Part shown: piece by piece, positions 1 through 55,270 of the stretch
Numbering within the stretch: the stretch's first letter is position 1
How the letters are laid out: each line of letters opens with the position of its first letter
DNA from: Asterella californica
Lineage: Eukaryota > Streptophyta > Marchantiopsida > Marchantiales > Aytoniaceae
NCBI GenBank assembly: GCA_036924285.1
Contig: JAYKYS010000006.1
Span: 23,162,001 to 23,226,000 of the forward strand
Reading direction: 5' to 3'
Length of the DNA: 64,000 nt
Translations under genes and position numbers: made by a program
The notes under the pieces: model-generated
Seen by the model: only the letters and a program-made list of their open reading frames with translations
Database searches by the model: none
What the model was told of the DNA's origin: nothing

Positions 1-1730
1 TTCGGCAGAAACCAGAATTAGAATTCATGATCGATTGGACTGTTGCCTTGGTCGATGTTGCGCTCATGAGAGGACTTGTTCTGCACTTCACGGGTCAAAG
101 TAGACGCCTAGTCCGAGATGGTTAGTGCGAATCACTTGTCAATGACCAGGTATCTAGAAACTGTAACACCTGCTCACGTGGGCTTCATTAATGCGAATTA
201 GAGCGCAAATGTGAGCGTGACAGTCGCTTGCGTGCGCTGATGGCGAACCCAAGTGGAAGGTAGGATCCGCTCGTAGTGGAAAGTCCCAGTCGAAAGGCTG
301 AAGAACCAGAGGACTTTCACAAGCAGCGTACCTTGTAAAATGACAACAGATCTCCTTCTCATGAAAGTGACAAGTAAGAGGAGGGAAAGTGAGTGTGAGT
401 ACTATAAAACACATGGCCAAATCAAAGGCAAATAACCGAGAAGCAGATGTTGGTGTGGAAAACACGAAAAGTGCGATAGGTCGGTCGGAAGTATGTACCT
501 AGGATCCGCTCTCCTAGGGCAGAACCAGTTAAAGGGATGTTTTGTGTTGGTCGAAGCAGGAAAGGAGGGCGAGGTACATTAGAAAAGGGTGCGGAAAAGC
601 AGAAGCAGATGCGACTCTGATGCGACACATGAAAACAGGAAGACTGAGAGAGTGTTACTGACAGAGTTGTGACCGGCCACTGCTCTACGAACAGTAGATG
701 CACTAGTGTAGGATCTAGGCGGGGAACCCTAAGAAACCAAGAAGGAAATGGAAGGTCGTCGTGAAGAGGTAACAACTGCCATCGTCCAGACTCCACTGTG
801 TGTAGGCGGCGGAGCTCCTGGAGCGCACTCTCTTCTCCCAGAAATAAACCAAAAATAAACAAAGTAAAAGAATAGAACAGAAAAGAAAAGAATTAAATGT
901 GCCTTTGGTGAAAGCATGAACAGAAACGGATGATCATAGCGACTTCGCCCTCATTCATTTTTAATATCCCTATCTACAGTTTCATAGACACATCTTCCAT
1001 GAACCTACTTGTCATATTTGCTGGTACTCGTGCATTTTATTCACCTCTTCCAAGATGGAAGAGGCTAATTAATTTAGTTTTTGTTTGGTGATATTGTCTG
1101 GATTTATATTTTCTGAAATGTATTTTGTGTCCTAACTTTATGGGTTATGTCTGGAAAGTATACAATTGTGTCTTTTGTTAATATTTAATAATTATTTTAC
1201 TATTTTATTGATATATTTACAAATTATTTTGATAACACCATCCAAGATCTACCAGTCCACAAACCACGTCTAACTCCTCTCACCATGACTGCTTCTATCC
1301 CCATCTATAGTTTCTTTCTTATTTCCTTGATTGTACTCTTCCTTCCCTCTAGCCAGAAGCATGTTGCATGCATATTATTCATCTCTAAGATAGAAGATGT
1401 AAATATACAAAGGTTTGATTTATTATATAATCCATTCTTTATGTAGTGCGCATACACATCGCTACACAACATATGTCATAACATATCGCTGTCAGAGACA
1501 CATCACACATATACATAACACATAGACGATGTCATACACATACACAAGTGTATCACAATCGTCTCCTTAAGTGGCGATTAGGTCCGTCTAATTCTAGATA
1601 GCCTTATATCTCAACTATGTGATATACACCTTCATGGGTGCAAGGATCTGGAGACCGGGTGCTACATCGCCCCATGGTTAGTCGCCTGTCTACAATCCAT
1701 ACCACGCAAGGATCTAATCGCCTATCCTTG
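1..1730. other. Left flank, no supported gene
   Basis: I see no recognisable gene here. Bases 1-900 are of mixed composition and have minus-strand frames up to 146 codons with no familiar motif. From about 900 the sequence is AT-rich. The stretches 955-1075 and 1295-1406 resemble each other (both carry a version of tcta-agttt followed by a small hairpin), which suggests an old repeat pair. Bases 1440-1730 lie just 3' of the retrotransposon coding region on its strand and may be its 3' untranslated region or LTR, but no LTR boundary could be fixed. Confidence 0.4.
1044..1064. repeat. Hairpin of the dispersed CCTCTTCCA family
   Basis: A perfect 9-bp inverted repeat, cctcttcca (1044-1052) and tggaagagg (1056-1064), with a 3-nt loop and flanked by ttca and aat. 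The same core recurs at about 24.8, 43.2, 48.7 and 59.5 kb. A weaker relative lies at 1369-1406. Confidence 0.5.
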
Positions 1731-1736
1731 CTATAT

Positions 1737-2355
1737 ACATCGAGGACAAACTCACCGTCCAATAGAAATGACATTGAAAGATGAAGTCAAACACGACATG
1801 TGCCAACCTCTCGAACAATCATCACACACCAACATACGAGCTGCTCCACCAGCAGATCCACACAACATACACCTCAAGCGCGCACGTACAACCGCTAAGC
1901 TTGGATCAACGGTACCATCGATGTTTAGAAGATGACATGGCGTGCAATTACGCACATGTCCTCCAAACAACACCATCACGACCCTCTAACATGAGTACTT
2001 CAGAAAGTAACATCTCACGCACTCGTAAAATAGTGCACCTTACGGTCACATCCAACGTCGTCGGTGCAGTTTGCTATGGATAGATATAATCATCAGGATG
2101 AAACATGCAAATCGATGACCGATAACCTCCTCCTCGGATAGCCGCATATCGCAATGTGTTTCTATACTGAGCAATCGCTATGTTCTCAAAAGTCATAGAC
2201 ATAACTCTCCGAAATATCTCTGCTCGTTGAGAACATGCTTTGACCCACATATCCAAGTCATCAAGGTTCAGCACCTCAGCAGAATCACGACGAATGACCG
2301 AAGGTAGATCTAGATCTCGACCATACAAGAGAAAATATGGTGAGAAGGAAGCCAA
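1737..2355 (-). pseudogene. Integrase C-terminal region with PHD zinc finger
   Basis: The first part (2355-2074) reads ASFSPYFLLYGRDLDLP and later IRGGGYRSSICMFHPDDYIY, the typical distal part of a plant-type Gypsy integrase. After a stop and a frameshift it continues at 1979. There a full PHD set of zinc ligands is visible: CMLC, then CDDC, then the H and C of GWHMSC (1871-1791), and finally CPRC at 1748-1737. The spacing is C-x2-C-x11-C-x2-C-x4-H-x2-C and then C-x2-C. One TGA sits where PHD fingers have a conserved Trp (IGR-stop-VCPRC), consistent with a TGG to TGA change. In the PHD family this fold binds histone tails, so a role in choosing insertion sites is inferred, much as chromodomains do in other Gypsy integrases. 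Confidence 0.75.
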
Positions 2356-2381
2356 AGATGTTTGTCGGCTAAAATGGTAAC

Positions 2382-3010
2382 CTAGTCTCCCAAGCGGCCC
2401 TTCTGCAAGTCATACTTGCGCAATCCTCTCTTCATTGTCTGAACTACCCTCTCTGTCAAACCATCCGTCTCAAGATGATCTCGAGATATAGTCCGATGAT
2501 CAATCAAGGCCTGATCACATGAGGTCTGGAACTCACCAAGAAACTTTGTACCTTGGTCTATCAGCACTTCAGCTGGTACTTCAAAATGACTCAGCACTCG
2601 GTCTAAGAACACATACGTTGTCTCCTCACTCGTCTTGTCAAGTAATGCCACCAACTCAATCCACTTGGAGAAGTGCTCCACCATGACCAACACATACCAG
2701 TGGTGATGTACGGTCAATGATAAAGGTCCCACAAAATCCAAACTCCAACGATAACTCAATCCCATAATCGGTAAAGGATGAAACTGTGGAGTAGGAGCAT
2801 TAAACGATGCTCGTACTCGATCACAAACCACATATCGTGCGACAAATAAAACATCGATGTGCATCGATGTGCAAACATCGATGTGCATACTACGCTATCA
2901 ATATTGTCTTTGGAGTAAGCTATGTGTACGCTTCATCCCAAAATGTCTCAACTCCTCATTGGCATGTCGTACTAACTGTGTCCTTTGGGATGGATGTGAC
3001 ACATCCCGTG
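2382..3010 (-). pseudogene. Gypsy integrase: zinc-binding and catalytic core
   Basis: The catalytic core (2888-2382) has the integrase acidic triad: Asp in SLDFVGPL, Asp in VLIDQGTKF and Glu in LTERVVQTMKRGL. Just upstream (about 3010-2910) an HHCC-type N-terminal domain is seen as RHANEELRHFGMKRTHSLLQ, followed by the degenerate YVVC pair near 2830. A local triplication of a short cgatgtgc-containing unit at 2850-2888 and stops disrupt the join between the two. The enzyme inserts element cDNA into host DNA. Downstream it continues, with a frame break at about 2360-2380, into the C-terminal and PHD region. Confidence 0.85.
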
Positions 3011-3270
3011 CTCTCTCATCCCACACTCGAAGTACATGTCGTCCTTCTCGTCAAAATCTCTTCGTTCGTTGGAGGACATGATCTCGCTCCTTGGTACTTA
3101 CTGTGTCTATCATCATGTCAATACGTAGGTACTCCATTAGGGTCCATCGTCATGGATATCTCACTGGTATGGAACACCATCTCCATCATCAAGATCTGGA
3201 GACTCACCATCTACTCTCTAACTTGAGAAAGATACGACATGGTCCTCCATACAAGAAAGACAGATGCATG

Positions 3271-3561
3271 TCACCTTAGCACTACCTCCTCATCAACCTC
3301 ATCATGCCATCGAGCACCAATCTGATCCTGCTGACTCGTGCATGGATTACAACCCAATCCATCGACATCTAGGTTTGCAACTCCAAGTCTATGCACTACT
3401 TGGAAATCATACTCTTGTAAGATCAGAGCCCATCGAGCAAGCTTCTTTGTAAGCTTGTCGGACTTCATCAACCATTTGAGCGACTGGTGATTAATGATGA
3501 GAGTAAAGGGGTTCCTAAACAGATGATATCGAAAGCGTGCAACAACCCACACTGTCATCAA
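3271..3561 (-). pseudogene. Gypsy RNase H domain
   Basis: This frame reads INHQSLKWLMKSDKLTKKLA and then RWALILQEYDFQVVHRLGVA, ending near DVDGLGCNP. These are the hallmarks of the distal RNase H of Ty3/Gypsy pol, with degenerate forms of the usual TDHQPLKWL and AD-LSR motifs. The N-terminal part of RNase H should lie at 3790-3560 but is broken by stops. The normal role is to degrade the RNA strand during reverse transcription. Confidence 0.85.
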
Positions 3562-3792
3562 ACACTCTCCCTCATAGAACTATACCTCGTCTCCGCCGAA
3601 TTATTAGAGCGACTAACATATGCCACCACAAACTCTTTTTCTCATCATCATGATGAGTCAGCACTGCTCCAAGTTGCAGCATACTCCAATCAGTGTGCAG
3701 TAGGAAGGGACGCCCCCTAACGGTCTCTTCAAGATGGGAGCAGATGTCAACTTATCCTTGAGCTCTACAAAAGCTCACTCCTGCTCATCTCC

Positions 3793-4647
3793 TCACTGCC
3801 ACTCCTGGTCTATCTTCATCAGTTTGGTCAATGGCTTCGCAATTGCACTAAACTCTCTCACGTATCGACGATAAATATTCACCAAATCAACAAATATCCG
3901 AACTCGACTTACATCTGTGGACCGTTGGATATGTACAATAGTCTCAACCTTTGTCTGTTGGACATTCAACCCACCTGAGTAGATGGTATGACGCAAGTAC
4001 TCTACCAACTCCTGGAAGAACTTACACTTCCCAGGGTGTAACTTCAACCTATGAGCTCTCAACCGCTCTAACATATCCCGTAAGTGTTTCTCGTGCTCCT
4101 CCATTGTAGCACTATAGACTAAGATGTCGTCAATATAACATCTGATAAAATCCAATCCTGTTAGGATCCTATCGATCACCTTTTGGAACTCAGCAGGGGC
4201 GTTCTTCAACTCAAATGATAAGAACCGTCACTAATAGAAACAATATTTGTCGTGAGAGTCAATTTCTCAGAATGTTATCTTGGACTTATCTTTTTCTCTC
4301 ACCGGCAACTGATGATACCCTGCTCGAAAGTCTAAAGTATTGAAGACCTTCACATGATCCACTACGTCAAAGATCTCCTCAGGTGTCAGCATGGCATACT
4401 TATCGGACTTTGTCTGCCGATTGATAGGACAGTAATCTCCACACATCCGTCTATCCGTGTAGTTGTCATACATATCATTCTTTGCTGGCATAACAGTGGC
4501 AGATGCATACTCTCCATGCGACCTCTCCACCAACCCAACCTCCAACAAGTCTTGAGTCTTACTTTCGATCAAGGCTCTCTCCATGTCACTGTATCTGTAG
4601 GGACGTCGAAAGATTGACGTGTCACTAGTCAGTCGATATGTATACAT
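3793..4647 (-). pseudogene. Gypsy reverse transcriptase
   Basis: Two frames separated by stops at about 4210-4266 make up the RT. The upstream frame (4647-4267) has the CGDYCPINRQT motif and, at residues 105-113, LDFRAGYHQ, which contains a catalytic Asp. Between the two frames the translation still reads EIDSHDKYCFY and then FELKNAPAEFQ, so little or no sequence is lost. The downstream frame (4209-3793) has YIDDILVYS at about 4137-4111, which holds the catalytic aspartate pair. These motifs place the enzyme in the Ty3/Gypsy group. Confidence 0.9.
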
Positions 4648-4922
4648 GGTCTCTTCAAGGTACCCAAATCTTTCATATTGAAGGCAAAAAAATTCATGTA
4701 GCTCTTCAAGGATCTTTGAACTCTTCGTCTCTCCTCTCTTATAAGCTTGGATCCAATCTCCTCTCCCAAGTATCCGCTAGAGGTAGAAGACGAAGCCATT
4801 GACTGCTATCTTCCAACCTCTAGAGCAGTTTTTTTCTGCTCACCACCAACAACCTCCACCTCCACTATGCGAAAAACTCCTATAGTCCTAGCTGCAAGCT
4901 CCACACTCTCTCCTACGTCATC
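4648..4922 (-). other. Linker between DNMT and RT, degraded
   Basis: Minus-strand translation gives short open pieces such as ARTIGVFRIVEVEVVGGEQ and KDLGTLK just before the RT. They are probably polyprotein linker. No domain is recognised. Confidence 0.4.
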
Positions 4923-5589
4923 TCATGATGTCCAAGGATGACGAACTCCACACGCCTCGTCCTCAATCTTTGTTTCCACCGATCCGATAGACAAAGAGCT
5001 CAGAAGTGTCCGAGCAATAACACCCGTCGATCGCATCCGACGCTTCTCAGTCAATCCAAGGCTAACAATCCACGTCAAGCAGTTCAAGTCCATTGCTTGA
5101 TCTAATACTTGACGACGTGAAGCCTCTAACATCGGGGCTACTACCGTCGTATTCATAGAAAAATCCATCGTTCGTTCTCTCTCATCGGCGTTGAACTCCA
5201 TCAACTGTTGTAACCGAGCATCCCATACAAGCATAGGTCCTCCATCTCTGTAAGCATGTGACGTTGAAAAGCTCACCAATGTGAGAAACGTTGTCCTAAG
5301 TCGTCCCACTAGGTTCACCATTGTCATATGTGACCTATCGACGATTCTCACTACTTGAGATCGTCGTCCTGCATCCAAGATGTCATCAACTATGAGGTGC
5401 GATGGTCGTCTCATTGCATTGTGTGCGTGCTTGAGCACCTCCTTTGATAACAAGTTCGTCCACTACAACCATAGACGATGTGCACGAGATCTCACTCTCG
5501 CTGCATCTAACAGCCGGTCCAACCCAGGACCGCATCTGGTGCACACTCCTCATCATCTCTGTATGAGCATCATCCAACAAAGGAACGTT
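4923..5589 (-). pseudogene. C-terminal half of retrotransposon C5-cytosine DNA methyltransferase
   Basis: The reading resumes exactly after the 1.86-kb insertion with NVPLLDDAHTEMM (from 5589), completing the ENV motif of the first half. After a frameshift it reads RSRAHRLW-stop-WTNLLSKE and then, from 5453, a 176-codon frame. That frame holds RDGGPMLVWDARLQQLME (about residues 69-86), ADERERTMDF (89-98) and RRQVLDQAMDLNCLTW (113-128). These match the distal DNMT motifs: the ERER-MGFP element and the motif X form LGQAMDLN. Substitutions at key glycines (MDF for MGF, LDQ for LGQ) and the stops show that it is inactive. The family transfers methyl from S-adenosylmethionine to cytosine C5. Confidence 0.85.
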
Positions 5590-6173
5590 GTCGTGTCGGA
5601 TATTGCGTGAAGGATGTCCAGGAAAACGCGAGGTTCTTGGCTGTGGAGATGCTGTGTGCTGAAACAGAGACAAGACAGAGAAAAACAACCACGAAAACGA
5701 ATGCTGCGATATATACACTCCAAATGTATGTACACGGCCGGTTCTTTCTCCTAAGAGCACAGAACTGATAACCAGACCAGAGCGGTCTGTAACCTGCTTC
5801 AAAGCCCTTAAAACAACCCTTGATTCTCAACCCTGATCCAAAAACACCGAAGCGTAGCTCAAAGCAAGAGAAACTTCCCTTTGCTAACAAGCAGAGCCAC
5901 AGCAGTATCACGCGATCCAAACCCAAGTCTAAACCACATCCATGTACAAGTTCTTAGCTAAAGCTAGCTATCACAAGCTGTATATAGCCAACCAGAACTC
6001 TACCGAACTCAAAAGAGCAAAATCCGTAGCGAAGAAATCGAAAAAGGCCTATCTGTGAACTTCCTCCTTTCGCCAAACGGACTTCAGATGTCGATAGGGT
6101 CTCCTCCGCTGACTCCGTTAACCCAAGAAACTTTCAGATCCGACTTCCAACAGCCGAGATATCGTCAATTTTC

Positions 6174-6960
6174 GGTCGCAGGTGACCGATCCTTCAAAAA
6201 CTCCTCCCTGCGGCTTAAAATCGCGCACACCGCACAAACGGATCGTCCAAACTGATATCCGTCTTCGCTGACAGATAGATCTAGCTACCCTGAACCCAAC
6301 GAGACTCCAAACAAGTCGTTTGGAGTTCCCTTTGCAAAACCACTCGAGAAATTTGGTCGCAGGTTGCAAAAAACTGACGTAAATCGACTCCCTGCGGCTC
6401 AAACTCGCTCATCACACTGAAACCAACAATCCAATGCACACACGGTCTTCTCCTATGAGTAGATGAAGACTCCCTGATCGCGTAGGCACCAAGAACGAAG
6501 AGCTTGGCTCACCGATCGCGAAGAACAGCCCAACCTCAGATCGCAGGTAAACGAAAATCTGATGTAAGCGCTTCCCTACGAGCCAATTTCACTCAGAACT
6601 TCCAAACCGCCCGATGAAAACTGGTATCGTCTTCAATTTCCTGTAGAACTCGGTGTTCTGATCCCGTTGGATCCAAGGACAGCAAGTTTAGACTCTGGAA
6701 CGGTCCGAACGGTCCAACTCCCCTTCACAGGTAACTGAAAACTCCAAATCTGCTTCCTGCGTCTCAATTTCACTCAGTATGCACCCCCTGATCCGTCTCT
6801 TCCCAAACCGTCTGAACCAGTGCGTAGCCTGCACAGATCTGAACCCAACGACGCCTTGCGCGCTTGCATTGGACTCCTAAATCTCCCGAACCGTCTGTTG
6901 ACAGGTCGCAGGCGCAAGCTAGCCCCTAAGCTGCCTCCTTGTTACAGTCTCTGTACGTAC
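6174..6960. repeat. Degenerate tandem array, unit about 180-185 bp
   Basis: A motif like ggtcgcaggt followed by ctgcggctca and ttcactca recurs with starts at about 6174, 6355, 6539, 6724 and 6904, a spacing of 180-185 bp. Copies are diverged. The array lies wholly inside the 1.86-kb insertion. Confidence 0.6.
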
Positions 6961-7050
6961 AATTCTCTCCTGAATAATAAGGAGCAGGCCCCTTGCGTCT
7001 TTGATATAACGCCTGAAGCCCTAAATACCCAGTCAGCAAGTAACCAGGAG

Positions 7051-7400
7051 CCTAGCTTGATTTTGCCTTTTTCCGAATCGCATAACTTCTTCTCTGAATG
7101 TCCAAACGAAGTAAACAAGATGCCCATGGAAAACTGACAATGAGCTCTATCCATCTATGCGATAAAAGTGAAGATCTGAAGTTGTACCAAAAGCCCGCAA
7201 GGTGAGGCCTAGCTTGTTTTCTCCATCTTTCGAGTCCTGTAACTTCCTCACTAGGCGTCCAAACGAAGTAGACAAAGTGCCTATGGAAAGCTGACAAGGA
7301 GCTCGACCCATCTATGCGATGAAAATGGAGATCTGAGATTGTGCCAAAAACCATAAGCTGGGGCCTAGCTTGTCTTCTCGTGAGTGTCTTTGGAGCGACA
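7051..7400. repeat. Tandem array, unit about 156 bp
   Basis: cctagcttg occurs at 7051, 7208 and 7364, and the sequence between repeats well (for example tgtccaaacgaagta and ccatctatgcgat in both units). There are two full units and the start of a third, near the right end of the insertion. Confidence 0.75.
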
Positions 7401-7446
7401 AGCATCGGAGTTTGAATTTCATGTAGGAGCCGGTCCACGACACGAC

Positions 7447-7863
7447 AACGTTCTCCAAGATGTACGCTGAAGAATCCACCTGATGCATCTGGAGATGTCG
7501 TAAGATCCGTAACATCTTTCAAAACATACTAGATCACGAATCATGTAAACTTTAACCTCTCTCAGCATGCGTGTGACCTTGACATGACCATCCGGCTATC
7601 ACCAAGTGAATGATGTCAACAACCGTGAGATCTTGCGCCCCCAGCAGTGAAATATCCGATGGTAATGCTTGTTGATATCCTCTGACAACTGATATGAGCA
7701 ACAACTCGGGATATCTTTGCACCAAGCGTGCCACATGACGCAATGAGATGCATCTCGCAATCTCATCTCTCTCCACATACAAGTATCGTTGTACTCGTAT
7801 GCCTGCTTGTAATACCACAGCCAAACCTATGCTGATCTCTCCAAACAGCTCCAGAGCACACAC
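7447..7863 (-). pseudogene. N-terminal half of retrotransposon C5-cytosine DNA methyltransferase
   Basis: Residues 3-18 (ALELFGEISIGLAVVL) match DNMT motif I, the S-adenosylmethionine site, normally LFGGI-TGLAA. YVERDEIAR (30-37) fits motif II. IAGWSCQGHT (89-98) is motif IV, with the catalytic Cys kept at codon 7584-7582 although the usual Pro is Ser. Downstream in the same frame, across several stops, SLHDS-stop-SSMF and then LRILRHLQMHQVDSSAYILE lead into ENV at 7455-7447, which is motif VI with the catalytic Glu. Upstream, a linker in the same style (VTLSPLDTTLIV) joins it to the protease region, so it belongs to the polyprotein. The domain is interrupted within ENV by the 1.86-kb insertion. 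Confidence 0.88.
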
Positions 7864-8268
7864 ATCTTCCTCTGGATATTGTCATACAATGAGAGTCGTA
7901 TCCAACGGTGATAAAGTCACAAGGCCAGTAGCAGGAACAATCCGATGTTCCTCTACAGACGGTACAAAGGCTTCACTCCAAGCCTGTTGCACCAATTGAT
8001 CAGCATACTGCTGCAACTCTCCACTCGAACTTCAGAGTGGAACATCCAAGACAGATGATACTGCCGTGGTCATACTAGGTATGTCCTCCACCTCCTCAAA
8101 GACTGGAGTATCTTCCGCAAGAGTATTGTACTCTAATAATTCTCCCGGTTAAGTGATGACTGAACTGAACCCTGCAACGGACGCCATCATCTCTGATGTA
8201 GACTTCGTTGTCTCAACTCTTACACTGAACCGCACTTGTAAGCTGCTCACTCGTCCTTCACCGGACTG
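7864..8268 (-). other. Polyprotein linker between protease and DNMT
   Basis: Minus-strand translation is mostly open with single stops, for example FEEVEDIPSMTTAVSSVLDV, SSGELQQYADQLVQQAWSEA and FVPSVEEHRIVPATGL. It is continuous with the DNMT frame. This supports one polyprotein rather than a separate methyltransferase gene. Confidence 0.6.
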
Positions 8269-8640
8269 TCAACCTGGTCTATAAGATGTTGTTTTCGTCC
8301 AATAGTCGATCACAAATCTCATAGGATATAGAACAGCATCTCCAACCAGTACATCATAAGACTTTGCGACCGTAACAATGACTTTGATTCTCACCATCGA
8401 GCCATCCGTGGGATGATCTGATCGAACTCTCACCGTCAACATCTCGCATGTCATGTGTAGAGCTGTACTCCCTGATTCTCATAGAGATGTCTGTAGCTAG
8501 AATGGACATCTCTCCACCTCGGACTTCCTCAAATCCAAACCAATGCACACCACCTTCCTCAACATCAACAGCTGGGCTCCCAAGTCTAACAAGACTTTCT
8601 ACGATCGATACACCTTCCCTGAAGGTGCCACCAAACAGAA
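8269..8640 (-). pseudogene. Gypsy aspartic protease
   Basis: The minus strand reads KVLLDLGAQLLMLRK, a retropepsin active-site segment with the catalytic Asp. The usual Ser or Thr after it is Leu, which would inactivate the enzyme. The distal part (8454-8269) reads VAKSYDVLVGDAVLYPMRF and DYWTKTTSYRPG, typical of the second half of plant-type Gypsy proteases. A stop and a frameshift separate the two. In living elements this enzyme cuts the Gag-Pol polyprotein. Confidence 0.75.
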
Positions 8641-9325
8641 GATATCACTTCTGTTGTCCAACAACACCACACCTGGTGCTAAATCAGCACGATAAATCGT
8701 TGATCTAACTGGTAACTCATCTAACCTAGCAACCGTCGTTTGTCAAGTACCACTGGTAGCTGTCTTGATCCTCGACTCCATAGGCACATCTATCGTCTCT
8801 CGATGAACCAACTCAATTACTAGAGGTAACTACATCCTTGCCCTCACTGAGCGTGATCGTCAACTGGAACACTAGAGCCAAGCTTCTGAATGTCGATGCC
8901 TCCAACTCCACTGCATCATCGGTAGGTCGTTTAGGATACATAGACGTGGTCCTTAACGCCTCCGATAGCGTGAACAACTGAGGAAATCTAGCTTGTCTAC
9001 CAGCCTCCCCACGTTGTGTATCCAACTCCACTTACGCACCTCGTGGTTCAGAGGTACGTATTGCACTCCGAGTCACTACCGTTGATGTCTCAATCTGCGC
9101 CACATCAGCCATGAAGTTGAAGTCAACTCCTTCTCCTCCATAAGACGTGGAAGTCTCTATTCTTGAACTTGATCCCTGCTGAGCCATAGTCATACTAGCT
9201 ATCCTCTACTCTAATTGCTCAAACTGAGCAGCCATACCCGCATCTAACGTTGTAGCAGACGATGGACTGACTGATCCTCTTCCGGGTGCTGGACCTCTAC
9301 TTGTAGCTCGACCACCACGGTCTCC
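8641..9325 (-). other. Gag-to-protease linker, degraded
   Basis: A 72-codon frame at 9031-8813 (for example RFPQLFTLSEALRTTSMYP) and flanking broken pieces are probably polyprotein remnants. No domain is recognised. Confidence 0.4.
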
Positions 9326-9562
9326 TTAAGCTCCTCCGCCTCGTCCACGATCAACCTTGTCTTGCTGTAGCTTGGAGTGGAGATCAAAACAACGGTCATT
9401 GCTATGACCTGGTCGTATATAATGCTCACATTGTATGGACACCGCTTGAAACGTCTCAGACGTCTCATAACCACCTCTCTTATGTGGACAACCCTTCTGC
9501 TGATGAGAACCATCACACGTCCAACAAGGACCAACTTGCTGCTGACTAGAGAAGGACGACAT
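9326..9562 (-). pseudogene. Gag zinc knuckle (nucleocapsid) region
   Basis: It contains CWTCDGSHQQKGC, a CX2CX3HX4C zinc knuckle of the kind that binds element RNA, followed by a degenerate second knuckle, CEHYIRPGHSNDRC, in which one Cys is replaced. It is in the same frame as gag and separated from it only by the TAG at 9608, so it was once the C-terminus of Gag. The tail is Gly/Arg rich. Confidence 0.75.
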
Positions 9563-9607
9563 GGACTTCTGTCCACCAGGTCTTACAACACCTCCTTGGG
9601 ATTGTGA

Positions 9608-10456
9608 CTATTCAACACGATCGCTACCACCACCACCACCACGCTGTTGCGTAGCTTGTGATCCTCGAGAAGTGATGGTCGCCCTATGTGGTGTCTCCTT
9701 GCTGAATCCAACAGTCACCACCCTCTCCTCCATCATGTTGCGCTCAATCTGCTCAGCTAAACCAAAGACAACCGCTAACGTCGCAGCGGTGTCCCTAAGG
9801 AGAGTGGCATCTCTGACTCTCCTACACAGCTCTCGTTCCAGCATCCCATACTCGAAATGGACTGCATGTGCTTCCGTCACCCCTTGGGTAACACTGATCA
9901 ACCGCCTCATGCGAGTAAACGTCTCGCGTAGGCTCTCTCCAGTCTTCCACTGGAACTCTTGTAGACTCCTCAACTTGTCGGTCTGCACACCCTGATAGTT
10001 CTTCCTCAAACACTGGAAGAACTGAACCACGTGGTTAAACCCTGATGGTATCCCGTTCATACTACCGCCTGCTCCACTACTAATGAACGCACCGTTGGTA
10101 GTAAGTACTTCGTCGTCCGTGGATGTATCACTGCTACTGGTACCCGAACTCGCAGGTGCTACGTCTCCATGAAACTGCGCCAGTAGTGATAGAAATGTAG
10201 TTGAGAGATCAATGTTGTCTCCACAACTCAATCTCCATGTTGTAGTCTCGTCTGTACTCATGGTAATCGTCCATTGACGGTCCCTCAAGGTGTTGGAATA
10301 AACCCTTCCAATGAAAGGTGTGAACAGCTGTGGGTTTTGCATCTGCTGTAGATCGCACCAACTGTCAAACTCCTCGATGAAGTCATCCAGCTCAATGATA
10401 CCCACCGTACTCGAGTATTGTCGAGGTCCCTTCGTGATCTCATAGATCTCGTCCAT
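9608..10456 (-). pseudogene. Gypsy Gag (capsid) region
   Basis: The longest frame of the window, 282 codons. The centre reads VVQFFQCLRKNYQGVQTDKL, then LQEFQWKTGESLRETFTRMR, a retrotransposon Gag capsid pattern. The C-terminus is Gly-rich (QRGGGGGSDRVE) and runs into the zinc knuckle after one stop codon. The true start lies upstream, since a coding-like frame (10677-10460, shifted) continues 5' of the first Met here. Gag forms the virus-like particle in which reverse transcription takes place. Confidence 0.8.
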
Positions 10457-12452
10457 GTCTCACAACAACGATGCGATAATACTAGACTCACCATCATAAA
10501 ACGCACTACTGGACAATCAACGGCAATGGTGTAGATAGTCGGTATCTCATCCCACTCTATGTATACCCACTGTCCGAGATGTCTCCACCAGAACCTCTCG
10601 TGAACTCCGTGATGAAAGAATCTCGTGAACACACTATCCAACCAGAATGCTAAAATCCTCATCACCACCGTAACCACAACTTGCTTAATCCCGCTCCTAC
10701 TGAGCTCACCTGTCCCCTACTATGATGGTCAAGGTAAGGACAACCTGTACCTGTCATCACCACAGGCAGTCTCTCAGGGTATGTTGGTCGCAAGTCCAAC
10801 CTCACCGTGAGAGAAACAAAGATAGTCTGACCAGTCGGCAACTTCAATCTCATCACCGATAGCACATTAAAGTGAAGTCACTTCGGAAATCAAGCGTTAA
10901 CACAAGCAAACGCGACACACAAACAGGAGGTATAATATGGAGGGATTCCAACCACAAGTTAGCCTCCACACTCAATCATGCACAAAAGATAAACCTAACC
11001 TCATCCGACCTGACGACTCCTCTTCAGTGACTACATGCATCATATATGACCACGAACTGTCATAACTTATACCTAAGGTCACTAACTAGATGTCCACACC
11101 TCTAGTAACTCCAAAAGTATCTACGTGGTAGCTCTACTAACTCACCCAAGACAACTACCACCAACTATCTTCATACGCGTCTTTATGGTATAAGCAAACA
11201 CTATCACAATGACAACTTCTCCTTAGTATATGGGGTCACTCTACCACTCCTCTAGGAATGTGCAAAAAGATCTCTTACTACCTTAAACAAGTCCATAAAT
11301 ACTTACACGCATCCCTAGAAGACACCAAGAGCTATTGGTCTAGTGGTAAAGCCAAAGCAAAGAACTGCAGAGTTAAGTGTGCAAGCTCAAGAATAGTGTT
11401 GGACAAGATGTCTCCACACAACTGAAAGCTTGCATACCTCTCTCACGCACGCTAGCAAGCTTGCAAGCTTGCGGGCTCGGTCTCCGCACTCTAGGATTCC
11501 GTTTCTCACGCTTCCACACTCACGCACCTCTGCTCCTCGAAGCTTCGACACGCATTTCACACCGCGTCACATCCGCTCACTCTTTATTTGAAGTAGAGTA
11601 GAACTCGAGCCAAACTACACAAGAAGGACGCACAAGAAGGAAACACAACCCAAAATAGCAGCTTCAGAGATCTAAACACACTCCAGAAGGTCGAAATCTG
11701 CCAAATTAGCACCCGCAAGCGAGATTATGTCAGATTTTTGACCACCTGCGACCTTCTTTTCCTTCTAACTCCTTCGATCCTTCACTAAATCGACAGATTT
11801 TTGATGCGTTGGAATCATCTTCTCAACGCGCACCTACTGCACTCCTCAGCACCAGAAATTGCTGATCCACGCCTACTCGACATCCATCGATGCACTTCTA
11901 CCGACTTCAAATTGATCTCAAAAATCTATCACATGAAATTCTAGCAGCGCTTCCACACTACCTCATCACAAATTCGACCAAGAACAGATCCAACCACTAC
12001 TAATCCACACAACTATCAATCACACGACCAAAAAGAACCACTCCGTGCACTCGCGCACCTGCAAATTAAAAATATCAACGATCTGCAAATTCTGGAGATA
12101 CCACCGGCAGAAATCCGTGACCTGAAAGGTCTCAATCAGACTTTGCAATTCAAGTTCTTCGATGATAAATGGTATGTACTCACTCCATCATGTCGATCGG
12201 CACTAAACAACCACTAAAGTCGAGCCAAATTCACTCTGTGCTCGCAGAGAATCCAGATTGCACTCATCAAGACTATCCACCCATAGCCAAGAGCTTGAAG
12301 GCTCAACTCGAAGAACTAAGGTCTCCAAGCCTTACATGCGAAGTATACCTCTAGTGGGCTATCCCAAGAACTCGCCCTAACAGCACTAACGGCCCTACTA
12401 GGATTAACCACTCCGCACTCGGCCAACCTAGCCGAGCTGCTGAACTAACGTG
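10457..12452 (-). other. 5' region of the Gypsy element, probable leader and 5' LTR
   Basis: The first 400 bp carry broken frames probably belonging to the Gag N-terminus (for example LKLPTGQTIFVSLTVRLDL at about 10840). From about 10870 to 12452 I see no coding sequence. GC content stays above the flank until about 12460, and read on the minus strand the segment begins TGTCACGTTAGTTC, a plausible LTR start. No primer-binding site was found. A tRNA-like gagctattggtctagtggta at 11328 was considered and not accepted. Confidence 0.4.
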
Positions 12453-15247
12453 ACATTTATAAGAAAGGTTAAATCCTGAATTTTGTAATCAGAATCACGT
12501 CTATTCGAGCTCGATTTATGGGTTATGTATGGATCTCAACACATTAGATGTAATTATCATTTGATATTTATAAATAAATATAAAATTTTCATAAAACATT
12601 AACAAGTTTTCCAATAACAAAAAGCGAGCAAAAGTTCCCCGCAATTAATAAATTACCTTGGACGGAAGAAGTAACCCACGGGCGTGTACATGTATAGTCC
12701 GGGGTACTTACTAATAATTAAGGCATACTGAAGCCCTTCTTTTCAAGGAAATATTATATATCACAAGGGACGGTGTAACCTTAAGCTACGGTACACATGT
12801 CTGTGATGGAAACATTACAATTCATTTTATTTATTTATTTAGATGAAGCAGTACATAAACCATTTCGGCCTTTTCCTCTTTGCATTTGTCTGTGGTTTCT
12901 TTTCTGGTACGATCGACCTTTTCCCGTACGCCATCGTCTAGATTCGGAAAGCTGATCAACCACAGTTTGCGTTCGGTTTAGGTCCAGAAATTTATATACC
13001 ATTGGTTACACTCGGGTTAACACTGGTTTATATACTAGGTAAAGGATTTTGGGAATATAAAGTCTCCTCTGCTTTGTATTTTGCAGTGGCTTAATGTACT
13101 AGACATCATCCTCTGCAATGGATTATTTATATGTTAATTTGATAAATTATTATCTAATTTAAACAGTAGTTTTAGAAATGCAATTCAACTGTTGGATCCC
13201 TTTATAAATAGTGTAATTCTTTTGGTTGCAGCCTAACGTAAGAGTGAGATTATATTCGATAATCTCACTAGGAGACTCTAAGGGACAATAATGGAACTAT
13301 TTCGATATGTGTACAAGTGCTCTTGTTAACCCTTGCTCATGAAGTATGCATAATCACCTTCTCCATGTTCAGATGGGTGCATATTACTGCATGTTTCATT
13401 TATCACCAAATCTTTTTTCTTGGAACAGTTTGGTCATAAATGTAATATGTAAAGAAATAAACTACTATTGGAAGAAAACAACCGGTTTTATATGAAGAAG
13501 GGGATCATTTCATATATCTTACAGGTTTCAGAAATTCAGACGTGACTTCCATGTTTAACCAAGTAAACCAAGTTCAATATAGACATTAAATTAGTATTTT
13601 AAAATGTAGTTGTTATAAATTTAACAAGCCAAATTTAGAAAAAAATATCTCTGAGTCAGTTCTTCTCTTCTTCTCTCATATGTGCTTTTCCTACTATTTC
13701 AAACCCAGTCGCAGTGTACATTTTGTAATGGTTTTCCAGCCACTGTAACCCAAGCAACAATTAATTCTTTTTGTTAATTTTGTCCATTTTACCACGCTTG
13801 TTCTCTTCTCGGGTCATCTTCCCCAGGGCACCCAGACTAACTCTTCTCGCAGGTCTGCTTTCAAAGAACTAAGAAATATAACCTGTAAACCCCAAGTGTA
13901 AGTATAAAAGCAGAAAAAAGAAGATTTCTTTTGTCCTCCTTGTGTACTGTATGTTAGAGAAAACATATTGTTTTGTTCCAAAACATATCAGAATTTTATT
14001 TCAGTGTTTCTCAAGCGATACTCTGTAATTAGTTGTGAAGTGAATCACATAGTGTAAACCTTTGGAGAGCTTTCAAATTGATTTGAGTCCTTGTTGACAT
14101 ATTCTATTATTACAAGAAAATACTATTAAAAGATTATCTTGGATATAACTATTAACTTTCTTTTTCCGTGACTAATCCACCAGCAGAACGAAGTCTTCTT
14201 GATTATCTGACATATTCCTTATGGTACTTGGGCTTTGAAGAGAAAATGCTTTTAGTGATAAAACCTTCCTCCGAGGACAGAATCTGTGAGGTAAAGAGTT
14301 AAACCAAAGGTCTTAACTAGCTTTACAAGTTGTAATCCATTAAACTACTTAGTACTAATAAAGAAACCGTTACGGTTGTTAGATAGATAAGTTGACAAGA
14401 TTAAGTTTAAGTCTAAGTTTAAGTAGATAAGTTGACGACTTTTCTTGGAACCAAAGGGAAAAACCTTTTTTGGCTCAAGAAAACTGCAAGGAAAAAGTAA
14501 ATATTCTCTTACTTGCTTTATGGTACTCATACCGGGGTTAAGAGAAGTAGATGTCTTGTACTTACGTTGAGGGTCCCTTTCATTTTATTCGTAGATCATA
14601 AACGAATAGAATAAAAGTTGTTAAAGGATAATATCAAATGATTCTCAAGAAACTGTTACAATAAACAATATTTCAAATAAGAGATATTCAAATAACGATA
14701 AAAAAACTTAAAAGCACATGAGTTTAGGGTAATTGACAAGCTTTGTTAAGCGCTGAATAATACTAAGGAAATTTCGTTTCTCCAGTACTTATCAGTATCC
14801 AGTGCATAATTTGATTCAAATTGTCTGTCGTACACCTTGAAACTGAAGGTAAATTTGACTGTTCTGACTTATAATACTCGGTCACTACCATTAATAAAAT
14901 ATTTTATCTGTCACTACAATAATATTAAATGATGTTATTTTAAAATGACTTGATGATTAACTAAACCATATATCTCTTTTATAATTGTTATCTGGAGCAC
15001 CAAGATACAACAACTTGTTGCCTATAAACTATGATTTTCATGTAATAAACATGTCATTGAGTTTCGAGAAAAATATCTCATATTGTTACTGAATTTTTTA
15101 AAAATGTAAGAGCTAAATTTAATCTTTATACAAAGTTTAGAGTTAATATTTATGATTAGGAAAGAGGCACCTACCAAAAGATTACGAATGTTTACTAAAC
15201 ACCTGACTCTTAAAGCGAAAAGGTGAAAACTAATAACTAGGTGAGCG
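12453..15247. other. AT-rich intergenic sequence
   Basis: No gene is supported; the longest frames are about 60 codons and AT-driven. An 11-bp perfect hairpin with a 5-nt loop lies at 13243-13269 (agtgagattat and ataatctcact). Confidence 0.5.
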
Positions 15248-53799: not shown

Positions 53800-54874
53800 C
53801 GTTCTTTCAAAGGTCTTTGCGTTCAGTCCATAGAGAGGCTTGCCGTAGTGAGAGAGAAAGCGCGGTTTTTAAACTCTTGTGAATCACAAAAGCAAGCGAG
53901 TGCAAGAAAAGGAGGAACTGAAGGAGGAGTAGTGGAAGAAGAGTGACAGCGGTGTGTCGCCGCCTGCGACTGTCATAAGTCGATAGTAAGGAAGATCATT
54001 TCTGCAGCGAGCGAGCGAAGTTTGACAGTGCAAGATTCCGGGGAGAGAGAGAAAGAGAACTCTGGGAGGTGCTTCCTTGTTGTTACTCATAGTAGCTGGT
54101 TGGTGGATCGTATAGAATGCGTTGCGTTTTCGGCCCGTGAGTCCGTGAGTGTTGGAACCTGTCGTGCCCTCAGACTGGCGAAAGTGGAGAAAGCGTGCTG
54201 TCAGTTCGTCTTCTCTTCCCACCTGTGCTCACCAGCACTTCCCGTGTTGCTGGTGGCTCGTTGCCAGTCCTCCTCTCCGTAGAGGTCTTAGATTTGTTGA
54301 ACAGTGCGGAGCTGGTGAATACACTGTTGTGCGGAGATCGACATAGGCCTTTCTCTCTGTCCGTCCGGCACTTAGCCTTAACTTCGGCATGCAAAGATTG
54401 TGTACCTGGAACCGTTGGTGAGATAGTGGTTTACAAAGTTTGAAGTGAGTGGGGTGCTGCAGTTTTGCCACATTTCTCCGTCTCATTGAGAGGCTCTGAG
54501 AAGGAGGAGATCCTAGGGTGGCCTAGGTGATAGTCGTCGTTACTCGGTTTTCCAATCGTTTAGCTGGCTTATTCGAGAGCCAGCAGTTCGCGAGTTTTGA
54601 ATTGCCACAAAAGTCGCAGGTGATGTCATTTGTATACACGAATAGAAAACATTTCAGTGGGAAGAAATTCTTCCACGAGTGGATGTTCCTGATCAAGAGG
54701 AGACGTGTCGAATGATATAGAAGTCGGCTTCGCAGCGGCTGGATTTTGTGCATACCTTTTTCGATTGTGGAAGGCGCGCGCTTAGCGTCGTCCTACTCCA
54801 CAATTGTTCCTGCCCTCGGAGCAGCGTTCCTATTCCCGGAAGCTCGTTAGAGCTTCGGATTGTAAATAGCGAAA
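53800..54874 (+). promoter_or_regulatory. Probable 5' region of the SAUR gene
   Basis: This kilobase is GC-richer than the flank and full of overlapping frames on both strands that all stop before the SAUR start, as expected of a long 5' untranslated region and promoter. I found no clear TGTCTC auxin-response element in it, and the transcription start cannot be placed. Confidence 0.35.
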
Positions 54875-55270
54875 ATGCCTGGAACCAAGGGACTTCTGAA
54901 GACCGTAAGGAGCTTCGGCAAACGGTCTTCGTCATACGAATGTCTTGCAGAGGTGGACATCCCTCCATCGAACATGAGAAGTGGGAGCAGGTCCAGGCTG
55001 CCTGATGACATTCCTCAAGGTTACTTGGCTGTCTACGTCGGCAACGAAAGAAAGAGATTCGTGATCAGCACTCAGTATCTAAATCACCATCTTTTCAAGG
55101 CCTTGCTGAAGAAGTCCGAGGAAGAGTTCGGTTTTGAGCACCAAGGGGGCTTGCCAATCGCTTGTGAGCCAGACTTGTTCGAGCATTTACTATGGCTCAT
55201 TGGCACCAACAGCCCCTCCGCGGAGACCACTAAGTTGGATGATCTGGTCGACTTATACGCCTCATTTTGA
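54875..55270 (+). CDS. SAUR family auxin-responsive protein
   Basis: A single-exon frame of 131 residues with the SAUR domain at about 42-112. It reads LPDDIPQGYLAVYVGNERKR, FVISTQYLNHHLFKALLKKS, EEEFGFEHQGGLPIACEPDL and FEHLLWLIG. In the family these correspond to the P-G-x-V-Y-V segment, the RF-IP--YL-HP-F--LL core (His for Pro here) and the EFG--G-L-IPC end. The N-terminal 40 residues are basic and serine-rich, and a short acidic-hydrophobic tail (KLDDLVDLYASF) follows. SAUR proteins are small plant-specific proteins, many induced by auxin, and in flowering plants some inhibit PP2C.D phosphatases to activate plasma-membrane proton pumps. The single-exon structure is typical. The start is the first ATG in frame, in the context gaaaATGcc. 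Confidence 0.92.
   Translation: MPGTKGLLKTVRSFGKRSSSYECLAEVDIPPSNMRSGSRSRLPDDIPQGYLAVYVGNERKRFVISTQYLNHHLFKALLKKSEEEFGFEHQGGLPIACEPDLFEHLLWLIGTNSPSAETTKLDDLVDLYASF

Follow-up and report, generated by a model that had tools for sequence, protein, structure and literature searches.

A decayed Ty3/Gypsy retrotransposon in the liverwort Asterella californica, very probably with a DNMT3-class domain, and its bryophyte and algal relatives

A Gypsy element interrupted by a later insertion

The 64-kb stretch of the Asterella californica genome analyzed here (contig JAYKYS010000006.1, positions 23,162,001 to 23,226,000; below, the window, numbered from its first nucleotide) holds at 1737-10456 on the minus strand what is very probably a decayed Ty3/Gypsy long terminal repeat (LTR) retrotransposon. 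A methyltransferase domain of the DNMT3 class appears to lie between its protease (PR) and reverse transcriptase (RT), and the element seems to belong to a bryophyte family. This degree of confidence applies jointly to identity, domain order, methyltransferase class and family membership; mechanism is excluded from it. The parts were assigned as follows, with RNase H abbreviated to RH and integrase to IN; identifiers such as P0002 denote related proteins described below.

1737..10456, minus: Ty3/Gypsy coding span, gag-PR-DNMT-RT-RH-IN-PHD (tblastn with P0002, P0009, P0014 and others; Pfam)
8885..10456, minus: gag region with a CCHC-type zinc knuckle (44% identity to P0002 residues 1-506)
8218..8799, minus: aspartic protease region (49% identity to P0002 over 194 aa, 5 stops)
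7447..7926, minus: N-terminal half of the DNMT3-type methyltransferase, with motifs I, IV (GWSCQG) and VI (ENV)
5590..7446, minus: later insertion of 1857 bp that splits DNMT motif VI, with a 6-bp target duplication and 9-bp terminal inverted repeats
4926..5592, minus: C-terminal half of the methyltransferase, with the rest of motif VI, VIII (SRAHRLWL), ERERTMDF and X (LDQAMDLN); one internal frame change
3280..4737, minus: reverse transcriptase (YIDD kept) and RNase H (RVT_1 6.2e-16; 53% identity to P0009, 10 stops)
1966..3140, minus: integrase in two frames (Pfam rve 1.6e-10; 43-44% identity to P0014)
1737..1958, minus: PHD finger behind the integrase (Pfam PHD 1.3e-6; alignment to P0014)
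12476..12619, minus: tentative candidate for the start of the 5' LTR (minus strand opens TGTTAT)
1098..1237, minus: tentative candidate for the start of the 3' LTR (purine run 1336-1350 upstream on the minus strand)

The methyltransferase motifs named in the first-pass annotation were all recovered on the minus strand where it had placed them: motif I (ALELFGEISIGLA) and GWSCQG within 7881-7555, ENV at 7455-7447, and ERERTMDF and LDQAMDLN within 5462-4926. The N-terminal half showed 66% identity to Marchantia P0002 over 160 aa with 4 stops and the C-terminal half 63% over 156 aa with 1 stop, a 28-aa match to P0006 lying at 5592-5509. By tblastn, this domain is flanked on the same strand by the protease upstream (8799-8218) and the reverse transcriptase downstream (4737 onward). 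The interval first proposed for it, 4923..7863, does hold the methyltransferase; some 63% of that interval is something else, owing to the 1857-bp insertion. Neither the insertion nor the PHD finger at 1958-1737 had been noted in the first-pass annotation, and the supposedly readable linkers are not open, since both linkers and domains are broken by frame changes and 23 in-frame stops.

Chance occurrence of the motifs was ruled out by shuffling the 64 kb in dinucleotide blocks 20 times. Five query regions gave tblastn scores of 187-465 bits in the window and at most 26.9 bits in the shuffled sequence; the DNMT domain of a Marchantia relative reached 197 bits against a shuffle maximum of 25.8, and RT-RH 465 bits against 26.9. 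The Pfam values for RVT_1, rve and PHD listed above were obtained on the window's own pieces. A Pfam check proposed in the first-pass annotation was thus borne out for RVT_1 and rve, whereas the window's DNMT pieces taken alone fell below DNA_methylase; four of the five relatives scanned scored above the curated cut-off of that family, Sphagnum P0013 being the one below it.

The element also has the general layout of Ty3/Gypsy. Its Pol follows the order PR-RT-RH-IN with the integrase last, the DNMT domain being an extra between PR and RT and the PHD finger an extra behind the integrase. Reverse transcriptase and RNase H are of the Ty3 type, and the best PDB match of the P0014 RT-RH was Ty3 itself (4ol8, 1.1e-80). 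Upstream lies a gag region, recognized by homology to P0002, with a CCHC-type zinc knuckle (CWTCDGSHQQKGC) read directly from the sequence within the open reading frame (ORF) piece 9329-9607 on the minus strand. The protease active site reads DLGA in the window and DSGA in P0002. In the PHD finger, all eight C4HC3 zinc ligands are present, together with one stop. Local alignment of the two LTR candidates, 1098-1237 and 12476-12619, scored 30 in direct and 26.5 in inverted orientation with 30 shuffles reaching at most 23.5, which is weak either way.

The window copy is dead, as is clear from its stops, frame changes and altered residues. In tblastn alignments of at least 60 bits, 23 or more in-frame stops are aligned to a residue of a relative; lower-scoring pieces and stops facing gaps do not enter this count. 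Several frame changes were found, including one or more inside the DNMT domain and between DNMT and RT, and in motif IV the catalytic Cys is preceded by Ser (S-C) and not by Pro (P-C). Stops fell on glutamine, arginine or tryptophan positions in 16 of 23 cases, while these make up 16% of the aligned residues. Such an excess fits C-to-T decay; we made no use of it because these codons easily become stops anyway and CpG is undepleted.

The 5590-7446 insertion came later and looks like a non-autonomous DNA transposon. It is bounded by the target duplication AACGTT (7447-7452 and 5584-5589) and by the 9-bp terminal inverted repeats GTCGTGTCG/CGACACGAC, and it contains a 146-bp tandem duplication (7050-7195 and 7207-7352, 79% alike). 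It sits directly behind the ENV codons, a place at which ENVPLL is uninterrupted in P0002 and other relatives. Consistent with this, the alignments of 13 of 15 relatives end exactly at 7447, that of P0006 ending at 7600 and that of P0014 extending to 7372. An intron was considered and rejected because the segment ends in GT...AC and carries both the 6-bp duplication and the inverted repeats.

Elsewhere in the window, an intact-looking host gene of the auxin-responsive SAUR family lies at 54866-55270 on the plus strand (PF02519, 7.1e-27). Like the placement of the element among bryophyte sequences described below, it fits a land-plant host, most likely a bryophyte. A tRNA-like string, TTGGTCTAGTGGTAAAGC, was noticed by eye upstream of gag at about 11331-11390 on the plus strand and is perhaps a tRNA-derived short interspersed element or a tRNA fragment; ARAGORN reported no tRNA in the window, including at this string. 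Neither an Rfam scan of the window nor Pfam searches with ten other window ORFs gave a match.

Relatives of the element and their two architectures

Three protein searches yielded 154 distinct relatives. The window's C-terminal DNMT half retrieved 15 proteins (12 from Marchantia polymorpha, one from Sphagnum fallax, one JGI and one ENA), P0014 retrieved 101 and P0002 73, with queries counted in; the P0002 search scored only the 7994 candidates that shared most words. Since the relatives were sought by their DNMT domain, its presence in all 154 is expected; at least one further element domain was present in 153 of them. The named hosts are Marchantia (15 proteins), Calypogeia fissa, Sphagnum fallax, Closterium sp. 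NIES-53, Haematococcus lacustris (3) and Monoraphidium neglectum (2), and two labels of bacterial metagenome-assembled genomes were taken as eukaryotic contamination. The suggestion that a related architecture occurs in bryophytes was therefore right as far as it went, Marchantia, Calypogeia and Sphagnum being the nearest named relatives of the window element, and too narrow, as chlorophytes have such elements too.

Identity to P0002 ranges from 79 to 96% among the Marchantia copies. As the 15 proteins derive from two annotations of a single species, some loci may be counted twice. One of them represents a cluster of 18 sequences. Two relatives carry the embedded DNMT domain in a single open frame, the kind of Gypsy polyprotein that the first-pass annotation had proposed to look for in the host genome: P0014 reads PR-DNMT-RT-RH-IN-PHD over 2358 aa and P0017 PR-DNMT-RT-RH-IN over 2352 aa. 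The order PR-DNMT-RT was also found within single proteins of Marchantia (P0009, P0016) and Sphagnum (P0013). The Closterium protein P0116 combines a Copia-type RT with a following gag, protease and a DNMT domain that, judged by eye, lacks its middle part; this odd gene model may reflect a nested insertion, a fusion or a mis-annotation. A scan of viral contigs gave seven loci with short matches (31-42% identity), and a scan of genome contigs confirmed none of 24 stretches.

The relatives fall into two architectures. In type A, found in bryophytes and probably Closterium, the DNMT domain precedes the RT (PR-DNMT-RT; 16 proteins). In type B, found in Haematococcus, Monoraphidium and many environmental proteins, it follows RNase H and precedes the integrase where that is present (RH-DNMT-IN-PHD; 90 proteins). 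The remaining relatives are 35 + 12 fragments typed by their neighbouring domains, and one unassigned protein. Haematococcus P0115 is a fragment assigned to type A, yet it groups with type B in the DNMT FastTree.

That FastTree (155 rows, with two of the 154 proteins left out as shorter than 180 aa) united all assigned type B sequences in a single clade of 103 rows with a support of 84 and did not recover type A as a clade. A more careful DNMT tree of 48 rows, built from 45 of the 154 proteins and without the long-branched P0154, separated type A plus the window (19 rows, 81/68) from type B (28 rows, 91/66). Here the window's DNMT pieces fell within an eight-row clade with Marchantia, Calypogeia, Sphagnum and two other rows at 100/100 support. 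Two RT trees were made, a larger FastTree of 93 of the 99 RT-bearing proteins and a Ty3-rooted tree of 43, and type B was one clade in them at 99-100. With Ty3 as root, type A formed a clade at 80 as sister to type B, with P0154 outside; in the larger FastTree the P0034 group of type A stood apart from the bryophyte rows (support 97). Type B was thus held together in four of four trees and the unity of type A differed among them. We regard type B as a secure clade and type A as possibly a grade.

Pairwise DNMT and RT distances were correlated across the 90 proteins in which both domains were long enough (r 0.53). By type, the coefficient was 0.98 for A (n = 11), 0.38 for B (n = 79) and 0.30 for a thinned set of B (n = 68); in each set the count was 0 of 2000 permutations. 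In our reading, RT and DNMT would have been inherited together for a long time, with one relocation of the DNMT domain. It is also possible, if somewhat improbable, that the two architectures arose by separate captures of related DNMT3 genes, as the presence of the domain at two different places might suggest; moreover, the trees contain neither DNMT-less Gypsy elements nor algal or bryophyte host DNMT3, human DNMT3A being the sole outgroup. Against this, the type A and type B domains have a mean identity of 36%, compared with 26% between P0117 and DNMT3A in a structural alignment, and type B is one clade for RT and DNMT alike.

The methyltransferase, the PHD finger and a C-terminal tail

Throughout the 154 relatives the catalytic residues of the methyltransferase are kept wherever they can be read, the Cys in 147 of 147 rows and the Glu of ENV in 150 of 150, and the window domain has both. 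The residue before the catalytic Cys is variable (148 readable rows: E 72, P 67, S 6, D 2, A 1); to our knowledge, Glu at this position is rare among C5 methyltransferases. Motifs I, IV, VI, VIII and X follow one another in unrearranged order in the window and its relatives alike.

Among solved C5 methyltransferases, the profile and fold of the relatives' domain were nearest to DNMT3A/B, with the tRNA enzyme at 2.2e-7. All six PDB matches of the window's N-terminal piece were DNMT3A, but with E values of about 1, and the C-terminal piece gave one unrelated PDB match (E 1.5). Identity as a plant DRM was rejected, DRM scoring lower than DNMT3A/B. Plant DRM (7l4h) is, like the element domain, a C5 methyltransferase akin to DNMT3; 4onj is presumably a plant DRM structure as well. 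According to the portion of PMC5890265 at hand, however, the motifs of DRM are rearranged, whereas those of the element domain are in normal order. Host DNMT3 proteins include Physcomitrium DNMT3 (PMC6453930) and human DNMT3A/B, and the relatives share the catalytic fold and motif order of DNMT3A/B. They differ from host DNMT3 in that the element domain is part of a retrotransposon polyprotein, and Pfam found neither PWWP nor ADD in any of five relatives.

A PHD finger was found in 91 of the 154 relatives; within type A it was seen in P0014, P0154 and the window. By sequence, the PHD finger of P0014 is nearest to those of Lid, KAT6A, PHF12 and CHD4, followed by KAT6B, KDM5A/B and DPF proteins. 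Several of these fingers read unmodified H3K4, and host DNMT3 is paired with H3K4me0 reading through its ADD domain. Should the PHD finger of the element read H3K4me0 too, which we put forward as a hypothesis only, a DNMT3 domain and an H3K4me0 reader would be paired in the element as they are in host DNMT3.

Behind the PHD finger, type B proteins such as P0033, P0035, P0053, P0075, P0078 and P0113, and also P0154, share a conserved tail with the pattern DPWxGTG...SPWF, resembling amino-methyltransferases. A profile built from six members found this tail in 53 of 56 proteins with more than 150 aa after the PHD finger. In 53 tails longer than 200 aa, a DPW-like pattern occurred in 25, an SPWF-like pattern in 16 and both in 12. 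Pfam matched the D12 N6-adenine methyltransferase family weakly in four of six tails (best 5.2e-4), one member staying below the cut-off (20.3 vs 22 bits), and muconolactone isomerase in two of six (best 6.2e-6), which we took for chance. Three other typed tails had no Pfam match, and comparison of the type B tail with PDB gave nothing better than E 0.12. When the tail was folded as part of P0150, DNMT and integrase matches took up the fold searches. If true, two methyltransferases in one Gypsy element would be a striking combination.

Possible function and wider meaning

Several observations weigh against our reading of the window element and its family. The LTRs of the element were seen only tentatively, and a pattern search for a primer-binding site found none. 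The copy cannot work and so the window says nothing on activity. CpG is not depleted in the element (0.74-0.81) relative to its flank (0.74), so that strong indications of prolonged methylation of this copy are lacking. The catalytic Cys follows Glu and not Pro in 72 of 148 relatives. A PHD finger was not seen in seven of the nine type A proteins that reach the integrase (P0012 and P0013 end inside it); because it is so patchy in type A, the finger may be ancestral with losses or may have been gained more than once. Finally, as far as the available text of de Mendoza et al. (2018, PMC5890265) goes, the corresponding Gypsy enzyme of Klebsormidium nitens gave no methylation in yeast, an assay that its authors call inconclusive.

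That enzyme belongs to KnitGypsy-Dnmt3, the known case of a Gypsy element with a DNMT domain. The same source, in the part available, confirms that retrotransposons with DNMTs are known from dinoflagellates and Klebsormidium, as the first-pass annotation had stated. Like the window family, KnitGypsy-Dnmt3 has an unrearranged Dnmt3-class domain in a Gypsy Pol of a streptophyte, a likeness taken from the published description. Its repeats are said to be DIRS-like; the terminal similarity in the window is weak in both orientations. The text available to us contains no mention of PHD and does not say where in Pol the domain lies. The window family differs further in where it occurs, namely in liverworts and one moss, chlorophytes having a second type of it. 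Descent from the Klebsormidium element can at most be conjectured: no protein labelled K. nitens was among the 154 relatives, most of which carry no species name. The dinoflagellate SymbioDIRS-Dnmt3 and SymbioLINE-Dnmt are likewise retrotransposons with a captured cytosine methyltransferase, and the SymbioDIRS enzymes methylate CG in yeast; in the same partial text, however, these are DIRS and LINE elements and are described as unrelated to the Gypsy case. A 2025 survey (PMC12344493) mentions, in the section accessible, that streptophytes and dinoflagellates have DNMT3 in 'LTR Copia and DIRS' elements.

Among the matches listed in the open-licence literature (subscription papers and supplements lie outside it), K. 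nitens was the only Gypsy-DNMT case, with no such element from a bryophyte or chlorophyte and no PHD finger. The bryophyte and chlorophyte Gypsy-DNMT elements and the PHD finger thus appear to be new, the Gypsy-DNMT combination itself being known. A chromatin reader fused to the integrase is familiar from the chromoviruses, plant Gypsy elements with a chromodomain; the window element differs from them in that its reader is a PHD finger, accompanied by a writer of DNA methylation.

How might such an element use its methyltransferase? Judging from its position, the DNMT domain of intact relatives would be cut free by the element protease within the particle, alongside RT and integrase. Its likeliest use would be to methylate either the newly made double-stranded DNA or the insertion site, so that the copy would enter the genome pre-marked as silent, a course of events that we consider a serious possibility although somewhat short of an even chance. 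Through recognition of the histone H3 tail, the PHD finger would guide the integration complex. Self-methylation is a plausible prediction; what was seen directly are the domains, their order, the conserved catalytic residues and the correlated histories of RT and DNMT.

The active site could instead have been kept for another task, such as methylation of element or host RNA or nucleic acid binding in the particle. The odd Glu-Cys motif and the K. nitens result in yeast, inconclusive as it is, are in line with this; we nonetheless regard it as unlikely, given that both catalytic residues are universal where readable and that profile and fold are nearest to DNMT3A/B and not to the tRNA enzyme. 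Similarly improbable is an action on the host genome, by which the domain would damp competing elements or limit the element's own copy number and so spare the host. Slowed retrotransposition to the benefit of the host is one possibility in the part of the PMC5890265 Discussion available, and recruitment of the polyprotein to host chromatin by the PHD finger is conceivable, but the place of the domain inside Pol would favour complementary DNA as the target. That the window merely holds a host DNMT3 gene or pseudogene with Gypsy sequences inserted around it by chance is an explanation to which we give almost no credence and which we reject on the evidence of the relatives: the copy is indeed broken and holds one clear later insertion, but the same PR-DNMT-RT order recurs in single proteins (P0009, P0016, P0013, P0014, P0017), in one frame in P0014 and P0017, and the Marchantia copies are highly similar to P0002. 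As far as the relatives allowed a check, neither outcome that would have spoken against the first-pass annotation turned up.

Returning to a methyltransferase that belongs to the element, we tentatively envisage an ancient Gypsy lineage of green plants with a chromatin kit of its own, which would predate the chlorophyte-streptophyte divide or have spread across it. The kit would comprise a DNMT3-type writer as part of Pol and a PHD reader attached to the integrase, to which the algal elements would add a further methyltransferase-like domain at the C-terminus; the element would mark its copies as silent and select landing sites by reading chromatin, and the DNMT domain would have moved from between PR and RT to between RH and IN in the algal branch. 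We hold this picture to be doubtful, somewhat more so because the trees conflict over type A and only 12 of 53 tails show both motifs.

Cytosine methylation is a classic weapon of hosts against transposons. The retention of the active site over such divergence suggests that these elements gain from the enzyme. De Mendoza et al., in the portion of PMC5890265 available, had a single Gypsy case and did not settle what the enzyme does for the element. Should the family truly span liverworts, a moss, Closterium and chlorophytes, this question would become testable in Marchantia, a genetic model. The Marchantia methyltransferases listed in the accessible part of a 2018 paper are MET, CMT and DRM only (PMC5784723), whereas the Marchantia proteome holds many Gypsy proteins with a DNMT3 domain. 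Counts of DNMTs would be affected likewise in algae: a survey reported, in the text available, no DNMT3 in the green-algal transcriptomes of one collection (PMC9998398), and element-borne domains of the DNMT3 class occur in Haematococcus and Monoraphidium.

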